A DNA stretch of 64,000 nt from Candidatus Bacteroides pullicola (GTDB lineage: Bacteria > Bacteroidota > Bacteroidia > Bacteroidales > Bacteroidaceae). The notes under the pieces were generated by a model. It was not told where the DNA came from and did not search any database. It saw nothing but the letters and a program-made list of their open reading frames with translations. The DNA lies in the NCBI GenBank assembly GCA_019115825.1, contig DXCV01000056.1, positions 107,334 to 171,333 on the forward strand, read 5' to 3'. Within the stretch, counting starts at the first letter, position 1. The number at the start of each line of letters is the position of its first letter. Both the position numbers and the translations under genes were made by a program. Positions 11,130 through 53,530 of this stretch are shown here, piece by piece.

Positions 11130-11230
11130 AATCATCGTACATGATTCCTACAATCATCCTGGATGATTCCTACAATCATCGTACATGATTCCTACTATCA
11201 TCCTGGATGATTCCTGCCTTCATCGTACAC
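11130..11230. repeat. 22-bp-period intergenic tandem array (family A: AATCAT[CGTAC/CCTGG]ATGATTCCTAC)
   Basis: Four 22-bp units at 11130, 11152, 11174, 11196 plus a partial fifth at 11218; palindromic arms AATCAT/ATGATT with alternating cores CGTAC and CCTGG. Confidence 0.9.
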
Positions 11231-21321: not shown

Positions 21322-21515
21322 GTTTTTTCTTTTTAATTAGGTTAATTGATTAGGTAGTTTGTTTGTCCACAAAGGTAGTGCGGAAGCCCGGACAACCCTT
21401 TGCACGTTCATTTCAAATGCACGTCATGTTCAATTCAAGTATGCCTGAAAGTGTCATTTCTTTGCGCTGAAGTCGTCTTTGGGAGCCTCTCTACAGGCTT
21501 TTGCGATGACTACTA

Positions 21516-21630
21516 GAATCATTGGTATTGATTAGGGGAGGAATCATTGGCATTGATTGGGAGGAATCATTGGCATTGATTGGGGGGAATCATTGGCATT
21601 GATTGGGGAGAATCATTGGCATTGATTCCT
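21516..21630. repeat. about 23-bp-period intergenic tandem array (family B: GAATCATTGGCATTGATTGGGGG)
   Basis: Five units starting at 21516 (25 bp), 21541, 21564, 21587 and 21610 (partial); between divergent susC and HTCS genes. Confidence 0.92.
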
Positions 21631-21710
21631 TGGCAGGATGGCTACTACCCTCCGCTTTTTCTTTAGGTTGCCGGTGTAGAATCCCGCAGATTATATCTAT
21701 ATTTGTTGCC

Positions 21711-24700
21711 ATGAAACCGAGAATCTGTATATTGTCAATTATTTTTCTGTGCTTATGTGCACAAATGCCTTGCCATGCATTCTTTGAGAGAGACCTGCAT
21801 GTGCTGACCATGAAAGACGGCTTGTCCGACAACACCGTTCATTCCATTTGCAAGGATAGCCAGGGATTCATCTGGCTGGGTACCCGGGATGGGTTGAATC
21901 GTTTCGACGGTAAGCGTATCCGTAACTTCGTGTTCGACCGTGAAAGTGACAGGATATCAGGTTTGGCGGAAGCCTTTGACGGCATCTTGTGCTTCCGGAG
22001 CAGGGATACGTTGCATGCCTTCGATTTGAGGAGCGAGCATTTTCTGCCTGTGCGGACGGAAGAAGGGCAGGGCATCCCTGCCATTGCCACCAGTCCCGGC
22101 CTCGACCATACGCTGTGGGTATTGACACCTTCCGAATTGCTGTTGATGAAACGGGTGTCGCCCTCTGGCGCTGATACCCTGCGGCTTCAGACCCTCCGGC
22201 GGCATACCGGTTGGAAAGGATTGGACGGCAGACTTTCCAGACTGGCTTTGAGCGGTGACGGGAAACATTTGTGCGTGGCCGATGCAAACGGCAAGATGGT
22301 CGTGGCAGAGGCACGGCAACCGGACAAGTATGTGCTGGTGGACCTGGGCTTGGGGAATAGGGTGGATGTCACTCACGTGTACTTCGATGACGTCGGCTAT
22401 GTCTGGGTCTCCACGCTTATCCATGGCATCATCCGCTATGACATACGGACCGGGCGGAAAATCCGGCTGACTTATCGCGGCCGGCATGTGCCCAATCAGC
22501 TGTCGCATACGGATGCCTTTGGGGTGGTGCGGCTGGCGCCGGACAGATACCTGGCAGTGACATGGAATGGATATACCCTGCTGACCCTGGACCGGAAACA
22601 TCCGGACCGGATTACGACGCAGGTGTTCAACAATGCTTCTTCCCCGATATTCCGAGACATCGAGACCCGTATGATTTCCGTCTACTACGACCCCAAGGGC
22701 ATCTTGTGGATAGGAACGGATGGCGGAGGGGGCATCTGGTCTGACTTGCGGAACCGATTCTACCGACATTTTTACCAAAACCGCCATAACGAGATTTGCT
22801 CAATCCTGGGCGATGACCAAGGCTACGTATGGTTGGCCACGTTCCATGAGGGACTCCTGCGCAGCTGCTCCCCTTTCAAACCGGATGAAGATTTGGATTT
22901 CAAGCAAGTCGGCGATGGAGCGGGACGGCTGGACCGCACGGTGTTGTGCGGCATGAAGGACGGACGGGGCAATCTTTGGTTTGGCAATGCGGACGGCACC
23001 CTGACCAAGTATGGACACCATGACCGGCGTCTCAGGACTTTCGGGCTGCGGGATGGAAAAGGCTTCCAGAACAAGTCGGCAGTCTGGAGCCTGCTGGCCG
23101 ATAGCCGGGGACGCATCTGGGCAGGTACGGAAGAAGGCTTGTTGCTCTTGACAGACACGACCGGCCAATGCAGACCCGTGACTTTCCGCGGGGAAGACGG
23201 CAAGGCGCTCCCGCCGTTCCATGTGAGGGCGTTGGCGGAGACTACCGATCATTCCATCTGGCTGGGAACTACCACGCTGGGGTATGCAAGTACGATGGAG
23301 AAGGGGAGCGCCTGAATATGGGTTATGAGAACCGGGCAGGCATGACGGAGCAGTCGGTCCGCTCGCTTCACGCTTCTCGGGACGGGCTGCTGTACGTCGG
23401 TTACATGAATGGTTTCGCCCTGCTTTCTCCCTCGGAGGACAAGGTCGTCCGCGTCTATACCACGCAGGACGGCTTGTGCAACAACTTCATTGGCTGCATC
23501 ACCGAGGATGAGAGCGGAGATATATGGCTGGGTTCCAATTCGGGCATTTCCCACTACGACAAACAGCAGAAGTTGTTTTATAATTATTATGTGTCAGGCA
23601 GCAATCGTTCGGCTTTCTTCTGGCAGGACTTTCTGTTCTGGGGAAACAACAAGAACCTCACGTATTTCAATTCGCAGCGGTTCAAGCAGTCCGGGAAGCA
23701 GCAGAAAGTCCTGATAACCGGTTTGGAGGTCAACAACCGCCCGGTGGCCATCCGCCAGGAAATCAACGGGCAGGTCATCTTGTCCAACAGCGTCTCTTAT
23801 ACGTCCGACATCCACCTGAGTCACGCCAACCGGAATTTCTCGCTCACCTTCAGCAACCTTTCTTATTCGGACGAGCAGCAGATGTACGCTTACCGCCTGT
23901 ATCCCTATCAGCGTGAATGGATATATACCCGTGGTGAGGAGAAGATATCCTATGCTAACCTGGAGAAGGGGAAATATGCCTTTGAAGTGAAGAACCTGCT
24001 CTCTGACAACACCGCGGACAGCACGGCCGAGGTGACAACCTTGTACGTGACTATCCGGCCGCATTGGACGGATACCTTGTGGCTCCGCATCCTGGTCATC
24101 GTGGTCGCCACCCTCTTGCTCTATGCCGTGCTCAGGCGTCTCCAGCTGAGGCACAAGCGGCTGGAGCATGAGATGCGGTTGGAGCATGAGGTCTTTGCGG
24201 CTCAGGTGGAAAGGGACAACGAGAAGAAGCTGCGGATGGAAAGGGAACGCTTCTTCACGCAAATGACGCACGAGTTGCGCACTCCGCTCACGCTCATTAT
24301 GGCTCCGCTTCACGAATTGCTGTATACGGCGGAATTGCCCTCGCCGGTGGGCCACAAAGTCCGCATGGCCTATGAGAACAGTCGCTTGCTGCACGCATTG
24401 ATGGACCAGTTGCTGTATTTGCGGAAGATGGAGGTCAATATGCTGAAGCTTCGTGTGGAGGAGACGGAGGCCTCCCGTCTGGTGGAGGAAGCGAGCCGTC
24501 CCTTCCAGGCGGTGGTCGAGGCTGGCAACTACCAGTTCCTGGTGGAAGGATTGCCGGAGCCTTGCACGCTTTGGGTCGATGCGGAGAAACTGGTGAGCGC
24601 CCTTCGCAATCTGCTGTCCAATGCCTTCAAGTACACCCGTCCGCAGGGCACGGTGCGCCTCTCTGTCCACAAGACGGTGATGGACGGTTATCCGGCCTGC

Positions 24701-25762
24701 TGCTTCGTGGTGAGTGACAACGGCCGTGGCATTCCGAAGGAGGTGAAGGACTTCCTGTTCGAACCCTATCGGACAGGGTCGCAAGCACCGGCCTATTCCA
24801 CGCAGATTGGCATCGGGATGCGCATCGTGAAGAACATCGTGGACTTGCATCATGGCTACATCAAGGTGGACGATGCACCCGGGGGAGGCACCGTCTTCAG
24901 CCTATATATCCCTGAAGGGAATGCCCACTTCAACGACGAGGCGGAGGAGGCTTCGCCCGTTCCCGCTCCGGCATCCGGACAAACACCAGAGACTCCCGCC
25001 GGGACGGAGGAGGAAAAAAGACGCTTGCTGGTCATTGACGACAACGCGGACATCCGGCGTTACATCTGCCAGCTGTTTTCTGCCCAGTACCTGACGGACG
25101 AGGCGGAGAACGGGGAGGAGGGCTTGCGCCGTGTCAACGAGCAGCTGCCGGACATCATCATTTGCGACATCATGATGCCCGTGATGGACGGCCTGGAGTG
25201 TTGCCGCGCCTTGAAGGAAGACCTGCGGACGGCCTCGGTGCCCATCCTGATGCTCACGGCCAAATCGGAAGACACGGACGCCATCCGGGCTTTGCGCATC
25301 GGTGCGGACGACTACATGATGAAGCCGTTCAACCCGGAAATGCTGGAGGCGAGGGTGGCAGGCCTGCTCCGTCAACGGGAGAGGCTGAAGAGACTGTATG
25401 CCGGCACCCTGAGGCTGAAGCACGAGGAAGAAAAGGAAGGGGAGACGGAAGACTATTTCATCAAACAGGTTATGCAGGTCATAGAGGCCAACTTGTCGGA
25501 TGAGCATTTCAATGTGAAGTCCCTGGCCGATGCCCTGCACATGAGCCAGCCCACGCTGTACCGGAAAATCAAGCAGCGCAGCCAGCTGAACGCTATTGAT
25601 ATGATTCGCAGCGTGCGTATGAGCAAAGCGGCTACACTCATTCTGGAAAACCGTTACAGCTTGCAGGAAGTGGCCGAACAGGTGGGTTACAGCGATGTGC
25701 GTACGTTACGAAAGCATTTCATAGCCCAGTTCGGCGTGCCTCCCTCGAAGTACACGGAATAG
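21711..25762 (+). pseudogene. hybrid two-component system regulator (HTCS) interrupted by a -1 frameshift near 23279-23282
   Basis: Frame 1 (to 23315) carries the signal peptide and two-component-regulator propellers (LTMKDGLSDNTVHSICKDSQGFIWLGTRDGLNRFDG); frame 2 (to 25762) carries remaining propellers, YYY domain, HisKA (MTHELRTPLTLI), HATPase, receiver and AraC HTH. Inserting one G in the GGGG run restores TTTLGVCKYDGEGERLNMGYENRAG. Confidence 0.85.
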
Positions 25763-29790: not shown

Positions 29791-29810
29791 GCATCAATGC
29801 CATTGATGAT
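29791..29810. repeat. solitary palindromic element related to family B (ATCAATGCCATTGAT)
   Basis: Reverse complement ATCAATGGCATTGAT differs at one of 15 positions from the core of the 21516 array (ATCATTGGCATTGAT). Confidence 0.55.
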
Positions 29811-29830
29811 AGGAAAAGGTGCCACTGATT

Positions 29831-30988: not shown

Positions 30989-31076
30989 CGTCCACGGACA
31001 GGTATATCCCCGCCCGTGCTTACCCGTACCTCCGCCCGTGCTTAGCGGTACGCCCGCCCGTGCTTAGGGGTACGCC
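30989..31076. repeat. 22-bp-period intergenic tandem array (family C: CGCCCGTGCTTA[CCC/GCG/GGG]GTACSYC)
   Basis: Units at 30989 (degenerate), 31011, 31033, 31055, each exactly 22 bp; variable triplet CCC/GCG/GGG. Confidence 0.9.
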
Positions 31077-42787: not shown

Positions 42788-42896
42788 AGGTTCAGTCCTT
42801 GTATCGGAGGACTGCAGTCATTCTACTGCAAGGACTCCAGTCCTCGGCTACAAGGACTGTAATCCTTGGCTTTAAGGACTGAGGTCAGGACTTGGT
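42788..42896. repeat. 22-bp-period intergenic tandem array (family D: AGGACTCCAGTCCTCGGCTACA)
   Basis: Units at 42788 (20 bp, degenerate), 42808 (23), 42831 (22), 42853 (22), 42875 (partial); palindromes such as AGGACTCCAGTCCT. Confidence 0.85.
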
Positions 42897-53420: not shown

Positions 53421-53530
53421 TGGACCTGCTTAGCTGCTCGTGCGCCCGTGCTTACCCGTGCCTGCGCCCGTGCTTACCCGTACCCGCGCCCGTGCTTGGG
53501 GATACCTGCGCCCTCGGCGTCCGGATACCA
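53421..53530. repeat. 22-bp-period intergenic tandem array (family C, second locus)
   Basis: Units of exactly 22 bp at 53421 (degenerate), 53443, 53465, 53487, 53509; unit 53465 CGCCCGTGCTTACCCGTACCCG nearly equals 31011 CGCCCGTGCTTACCCGTACCTC. Confidence 0.9.

Follow-up and report, generated by a model that had tools for sequence, protein, structure and literature searches.

The common view is that HU proteins recognize DNA by its shape, with little sequence preference. Inverted repeats are on record in HU control regions: the E. coli hup genes are under negative control, with an inverted repeat at hupA, and the P. gingivalis HU gene PG0121 has a 77-bp inverted repeat (PMC3969353). BrickBuilt, a MITE of the Bacteroidales species Porphyromonas gingivalis, carries an internal 23-bp tandem repeat with the unit AGAYCATARTATCCTCTCRTRTG and has IS5-like terminal inverted repeats (TIRs); it is intergenic, varies in unit number and breaks assemblies (PMC4596501). 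The pneumococcal BOX element (boxA-boxBn-boxC) has two conserved arms around a middle module of variable number, and the same boxB modules occur between other arms in S. suis, while RUP has TIRs like those of IS630-Spn1 (PMC3049150). Finally, REP/BIME elements and the GTAG/CGTC palindromes associated with RAYT are dispersed extragenic palindromes that are sometimes clustered (PMC3733652).

Here we describe a palindrome array in a 64,000-nucleotide stretch of Candidatus Bacteroides pullicola DNA (the window), located between the divergent susC and HTCS genes of a PUL. Arrays of the same kind were found throughout the B. pullicola genome and upstream of genes that encode short members of the HU family. 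Based on sequence comparison, the best reading, which we hold with modest confidence, is that these arrays may serve an autoregulated HU-like protein as sites scattered over the genome, with a MITE responsible for part of their spread.

A palindrome array between susC and HTCS

The array consists of five imperfect 17-bp palindromes (AATCATTGGCATTGATT) spaced by 25, 23, 23 and 23 bp, and it ends 83 bp before the HTCS ATG (21711). Tandem Repeats Finder reports it at 21516-21627 with a period of 23, 4.8 copies and 94% matches. Unit 1 (AATCATTGGTATTGATT) has one change, and units 2-5 are identical to each other. The first spacer, AGGGGAGG, is 8 nt long, and the others (GGGAGG, GGGGGG and GGGGAG) are 6 nt each. 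When the whole window was searched for palindromic 17-mers, at least three at steps of 21-25 bp, only the arrays at 21517 and 11130 were recovered, and five shuffles of the window yielded none. A preliminary description of this DNA had noted a five-copy tandem array with a 23-bp unit upstream of the HTCS gene, the palindromic nature of its units and its kinship to a 'family A' array; the repeat, the palindromes and the kinship all proved real, the two arrays having the same 17+5 architecture and different cores. As to its suggestion that varying G-runs could alter the spacing of the units, the G-runs are interrupted by A, and the first spacer is the only one of different length. The features of the window are collected in Table 1.

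Table 1. Positions of arrays and of neighboring elements in the window
Feature	Position	Strand	Basis
susC -7 box TACCTTTG (TAnnTTTG), kept in relatives	21370..21377	-	consensus PMC7366714
17-bp direct repeat TGCACGTTCATTTCAAA / TGCACGTCATGTTCAAT, kept in relatives	21401..21437	.	Tandem Repeats Finder, spacer comparison
Possible remnant of inner left MITE arm (..ACGACTACGTGAGG), GATGACTACTAG	21505..21516	+	inspection
Palindrome array AATCANTGGCANTGATT, five units, G-rich spacers	21517..21627	+	unit starts 21517, 21542, 21565, 21588, 21611
Truncated right MITE arm TGGCAGGATGGCTACTACCCTCCGCTTTTT	21631..21660	+	local score 20 against the arm of locus L013; best of 2000 shuffles 14
HTCS -7-like box TATATTTG, downstream of array	21698..21705	+	consensus PMC7366714
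'Family A' array, same architecture, cores CGTAC and CCTGG	11130..11229	.	Tandem Repeats Finder, palindrome search, leader comparison
Third class member in window, two units AATCAGTGGCACCTTTT and CATCAATGGCATTGATG, between converging genes	29792..29830	-	

Other 22-bp repeats are present in the window. The tandem repeats at 31009-31076 and 53441-53497 have a common unit, CCCGTGCTTANCNGTAC, which fails the palindrome test, and that at 42829-42881 (AAGGACTGCAATCCT.., 2.4 copies) is partly palindromic.

Dispersal of the arrays

The B. pullicola genome is available as a draft of 2.86 Mb in 89 contigs, 85% complete. It contains 31 exact copies of the window unit AATCATTGGCATTGATT, in about 15 short arrays, with none for the reversed-pattern control; a sister unit, AAAGGTGGCACCTTT, occurs exactly 53 times (control 0). 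Altogether, at least 45 copies of the 22-23-bp palindrome array are scattered over the genome, many of them on small transposons. At this period the dispersed arrays mix GGC-centred units with differing complementary arms (AATCAN, CATCAA, CAAAGG and AAAAGG) as well as hybrids of these. They are intergenic, and by simple ORF calls the neighboring genes are in tandem at 22 places, convergent at 12 and divergent at 10; because all three kinds of spacer are used, there is no visible tie to promoters or PULs. Unit number varies from about 1 to 6 among paralogous places, in line with the variable copy number raised in the preliminary description; the orthologous place in relatives carries no array. 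Because contigs C1 and C28 of G000 both terminate within an array, the assembly probably conceals additional or longer ones.

Arrays of this class extend across the genus. Of 160 Bacteroides genomes, at least 43 matched the pattern AATCA-N7-TGATT-N5-AATCA-N7-TGATT, the reversed control staying at 0 throughout, and the core sequences of these arrays are genome-specific. The comparisons used one genome per species, with promoters and genes assigned by simple rules. One three-unit array has near-identical surroundings in G125 and G161 (loci L112 and L116), apparently through common inheritance. A four-unit array of another unit type, TCTACATGGCATGTAGG, begins at position 1131 of locus L107 (G002:C2 near 14.5 kb), which belongs to the sequence examined as background.

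An IS630-type MITE as one vehicle

Many arrays lie between a conserved arm on the left (GGTATGTTTAGG..ACGACTACGTGAGG) and another on the right (ATCAAGATGAATACTACCCTTCGCTTCTTGATG), which terminate in 27-bp inverted repeats (TAAGTA..TTAGTTTATA). This TIR has 21 matches in the B. pullicola genome, compared to 0 for the control. It is also found on locus L075 and at the end of an IS630-type transposase gene on contig C25; the opposite end of the gene has a weaker copy. A homologue of this gene in G023 encodes HTH_32 and DDE_3 domains. Comparison of a complete element (L017) with G161 and G002 revealed a clean insertion at TA; the comparison covers this one site, where extra TAAA repeats are present on the left. 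Given the IS630-shared TIRs and the TA insertion, we conclude that the complete copies, which alone have these TIRs at both ends, are IS630-type MITEs that enclose an array.

The window copy differs from these. No TIR was found within the susC/HTCS spacer, the right arm alone remains, and the alignment of the longer left flank with the MITE left arm did not rise above that of shuffles. With no TIR and a right flank that matches the MITE arm, the window copy is a truncated fragment and not a complete element. The MITE is prominent in the B. pullicola genome and its near relatives. Most arrays inspected in other Bacteroides species are without the IS630-type TIR, indicating that the MITE is only one vehicle. 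Three loci from other Bacteroides (L073, L079 and L080) are short elements with the same IS630-type TIRs and unrelated interiors.

Arrays in the leaders of HU-HIG genes

Inspection of the loci placed several arrays ahead of genes encoding short proteins of the HU family. These proteins are members of PF18291 (HU-HIG) and TIGR01201 (HU_rel), with scores above the curated cut-off. A profile search covered the 160 genomes, and the upstream regions of the 47 genes scoring at least 190 bits were surveyed. Arrays of at least three units lie upstream of 37 of the 47 genes, compared to 0 of 600 shuffles. Applied to 76 kb of real sequence that had not been selected for arrays, the detector returned three arrays besides the window's own, which means that its background is low but non-zero. 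In most of the HU leaders, a -7 box matching the sigma-ABfr consensus TAnnTTTG (PMC7366714) starts 21 nt, in some cases 20 nt, ahead of the first unit, and the array usually starts 13 nt past the box. Within the B. pullicola genome, two HU leaders have a -7 box at this distance and no other array does; on this ground, dispersed arrays were rejected as promoter parts.

AATCA-type arrays are present in 31 of the 35 genomes with the short HU-HIG clade and in 12 of the 125 without it (31/4/12/113; OR 73, Fisher p=4.8e-19, a value inflated by kinship among the genomes). Of the genomes with arrays, twelve lack an HU match reaching 190 bits. A single well-supported clade holds most of the array-bearing HU genes (43 of 52 rows), and a search with the profile of the HU clade turned up no PDB chain. 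Longer HU-HIG paralogues outside the main clade (L216, L219 and L221-L223) have upstream arrays with an ACGGCGT-like core. In the open-licence literature we found neither a cognate site or array for HU-HIG (PF18291) nor an HU associated with tandem palindromes in Bacteroides. Since the same kind of array occupies a set position in the leaders of HU-like genes in many Bacteroides species, an HU-like protein is its likely binding partner.

It could be argued that no protein partner is needed: the array might be a selfish minisatellite, a cargo of the IS630-type MITE that multiplies by slippage and transposition, and the arrays in HU leaders might be tolerated insertions or an unrelated element. 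The anatomy of the MITE, its TA insertion and IS630 TIRs are consistent with this, as are the use of all gene orientations and the variable unit number. However, the IS630-type TIR is absent from most arrays of other species, and the distance to the -7 box stays fixed in dozens of genomes while the unit sequences change, which would be unexpected for tolerated insertions. We consider this explanation unlikely.

Matching of units, leaders and proteins

The cores of dispersed arrays are closer to the HU leader cores of their own genome than to those of others (about 1.1 versus 3.4 mismatches of 7; permutation p=5e-5, with leader units entered by hand). Leader similarity also tracks HU protein similarity (Mantel r=0.47, p=2e-4), although leader and protein are linked genes, so that parallel divergence alone could be co-inheritance. 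In B. pullicola, the leader of the HU-HIG gene C29:7842 contains, 13 nt past its -7 box, an array of the window unit type. A relative of this gene in G093 has the leader most similar to the window array, and its AATCAATGGCATTGATT units and 6-nt C/G-run spacers reproduce the 23-bp form of the window array. The B. pullicola genome has ten HU-HIG matches, of which four were listed; a third HU gene of this genome (C48) has yet another core. Family A matches neither of the two short-clade HU leaders of this genome that were tested; it resembles the leaders of another HU clade (L212, L191 and L211), a likeness that predicts a further HU gene in the B. pullicola genome, one whose leader would have GTACG-type units.

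Arm pairs 1-6 of the units keep Watson-Crick symmetry through compensatory changes on both sides; picking the units by palindromicity inflates the totals but leaves the variety of pair types unaffected. Such changes would also be expected of an element that acts as RNA, with transcribed hairpins in leaders and spacers working through attenuation, mRNA stability or RNA binding by the HU-like protein. The leader arrays would begin a few nt into the transcript, and on either strand the window array has a better fold than 200 shuffled versions (z -3.7 and -4.05). A search of Rfam gave only a sub-threshold chance match, to SNORD47. Against an RNA element, many dispersed arrays occupy spacers between divergent or convergent genes and lack a -7 box at leader distance. 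Furthermore, core orientation flips between units within one leader array (L174, L182), which is easier to reconcile with a dyad site than with an RNA signal read from one strand. A role at the RNA level therefore seems improbable to us.

The susC/HTCS spacer in relatives

The orthologous susC/HTCS spacers of G032, G002 and G161/B. merdigallinarum are without the array and ~150 bp around it, and they keep the susC -7 box and the 17-bp direct repeat. The simplest history would be an insertion in the window lineage. The preliminary description had seen the array as a control site of the PUL whose copy number could tune PUL expression, and it named the AraC domain of the HTCS for a binding check. 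Its place in the divergent spacer, shortly before the HTCS start, agrees with such a role. However, three species have susC, HTCS and the conserved direct repeat yet no array, and the AATCATTGGCATTGATT unit recurs at about 15 unrelated places; this comparison does not support the assignment, and we regard control of the PUL through the array as very unlikely. As an HTCS operator the array is disfavored by the same orthologous spacers, and the direct repeat, which adjoins the susC promoter, would be the better candidate.

The window array starts 13 nt after a native TTTTG, mimicking the spacing of HU leaders. The 8-mer concerned, GGCTTTTG, is not TAnnTTTG, and thus we give this spacing no weight. 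The window copy is outside any HU leader, and no function of its own can be recognized; it probably serves as a landing site and plays no dedicated part in controlling the PUL. The HTCS gene itself (21711-25762) is split by a frameshift near 23260-23315 into a 534-aa ORF followed by an 864-aa ORF in another frame. In the relative L069 the HTCS is a single 1350-aa ORF, and the split in the window is either an assembly error or a pseudogene.

An origin as a REP/BIME element spread by a Y1 (RAYT) transposase, which the short tandem palindromes and GTAG/CTAC-like spacers might suggest, is the least credible of the explanations considered and was rejected, since no Y1_Tnp gene was found in the B. 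pullicola genome and RAYT transposases show no association with arrays over the 160 genomes (OR 1.06, p=1).

Discussion

Taken together, the leader position of the arrays, their co-occurrence with the HU-HIG clade and the matching of units argue for dispersed sites of an HU-like protein. According to this proposal, the HU-HIG protein (C29:7842) would bind its cognate units in double-stranded DNA and would repress its own gene via the promoter-proximal leader array. It would also occupy the dispersed arrays, with the window copy as one landing site. The array would have been carried into the susC/HTCS spacer within a non-autonomous IS630-type MITE, whose ends were later lost, and any effect of this copy on susC or HTCS would be incidental.

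A broader proposal, to which we give slightly less than an even chance, is that members of the HU-HIG clade recognize clade-specific 17-bp palindromes in 22-bp arrays, repress their own genes via an array set at a constant position behind the promoter, and keep or spread matching arrays genome-wide. Each genome would then carry one or more private pairs of HU and array, which would amount to a nucleoid protein with evolving sequence specificity. If so, HU-like proteins and their co-changing arrays would constitute a natural series of proteins and sites in which to study how nucleoid proteins gain specificity, and a function would be suggested for many HU-HIG paralogues of gut Bacteroides. Arrays beside PULs, in turn, look like movable landing sites and not like operators of the adjoining PUL.

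Among described elements, BrickBuilt (PMC4596501) is similar as a Bacteroidales MITE with an internal 23-bp tandem repeat, intergenic, variable in unit number and disruptive to assembly. We rejected membership in that family because both the unit and the TIRs differ, the latter being IS630-like here; in addition, no link to HU is seen in the part of the BrickBuilt report consulted, in contrast to the HU-HIG link of the present arrays. Middle modules that vary in number between two conserved arms recall BOX, and the IS630-type TIRs recall RUP, yet the sequences and hosts are unrelated, and the middle module of BOX/RUP is not known as an HU-tied 22-bp palindrome (PMC3049150). REP/BIME and the RAYT-associated palindromes (PMC3733652) are likewise dispersed and extragenic, whereas the present arrays have regular 22-bp spacing, an HU-HIG link and no link to RAYT. 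Precedents in regulation are E. coli hupA and PG0121, where an HU-type protein is likewise paired with an inverted repeat in the control region (PMC3969353). There, a single large inverted repeat is accompanied by structure-preferring binding; here, the HU-HIG genes are preceded by arrays of clade-specific 17-bp units that are also dispersed over the genome.
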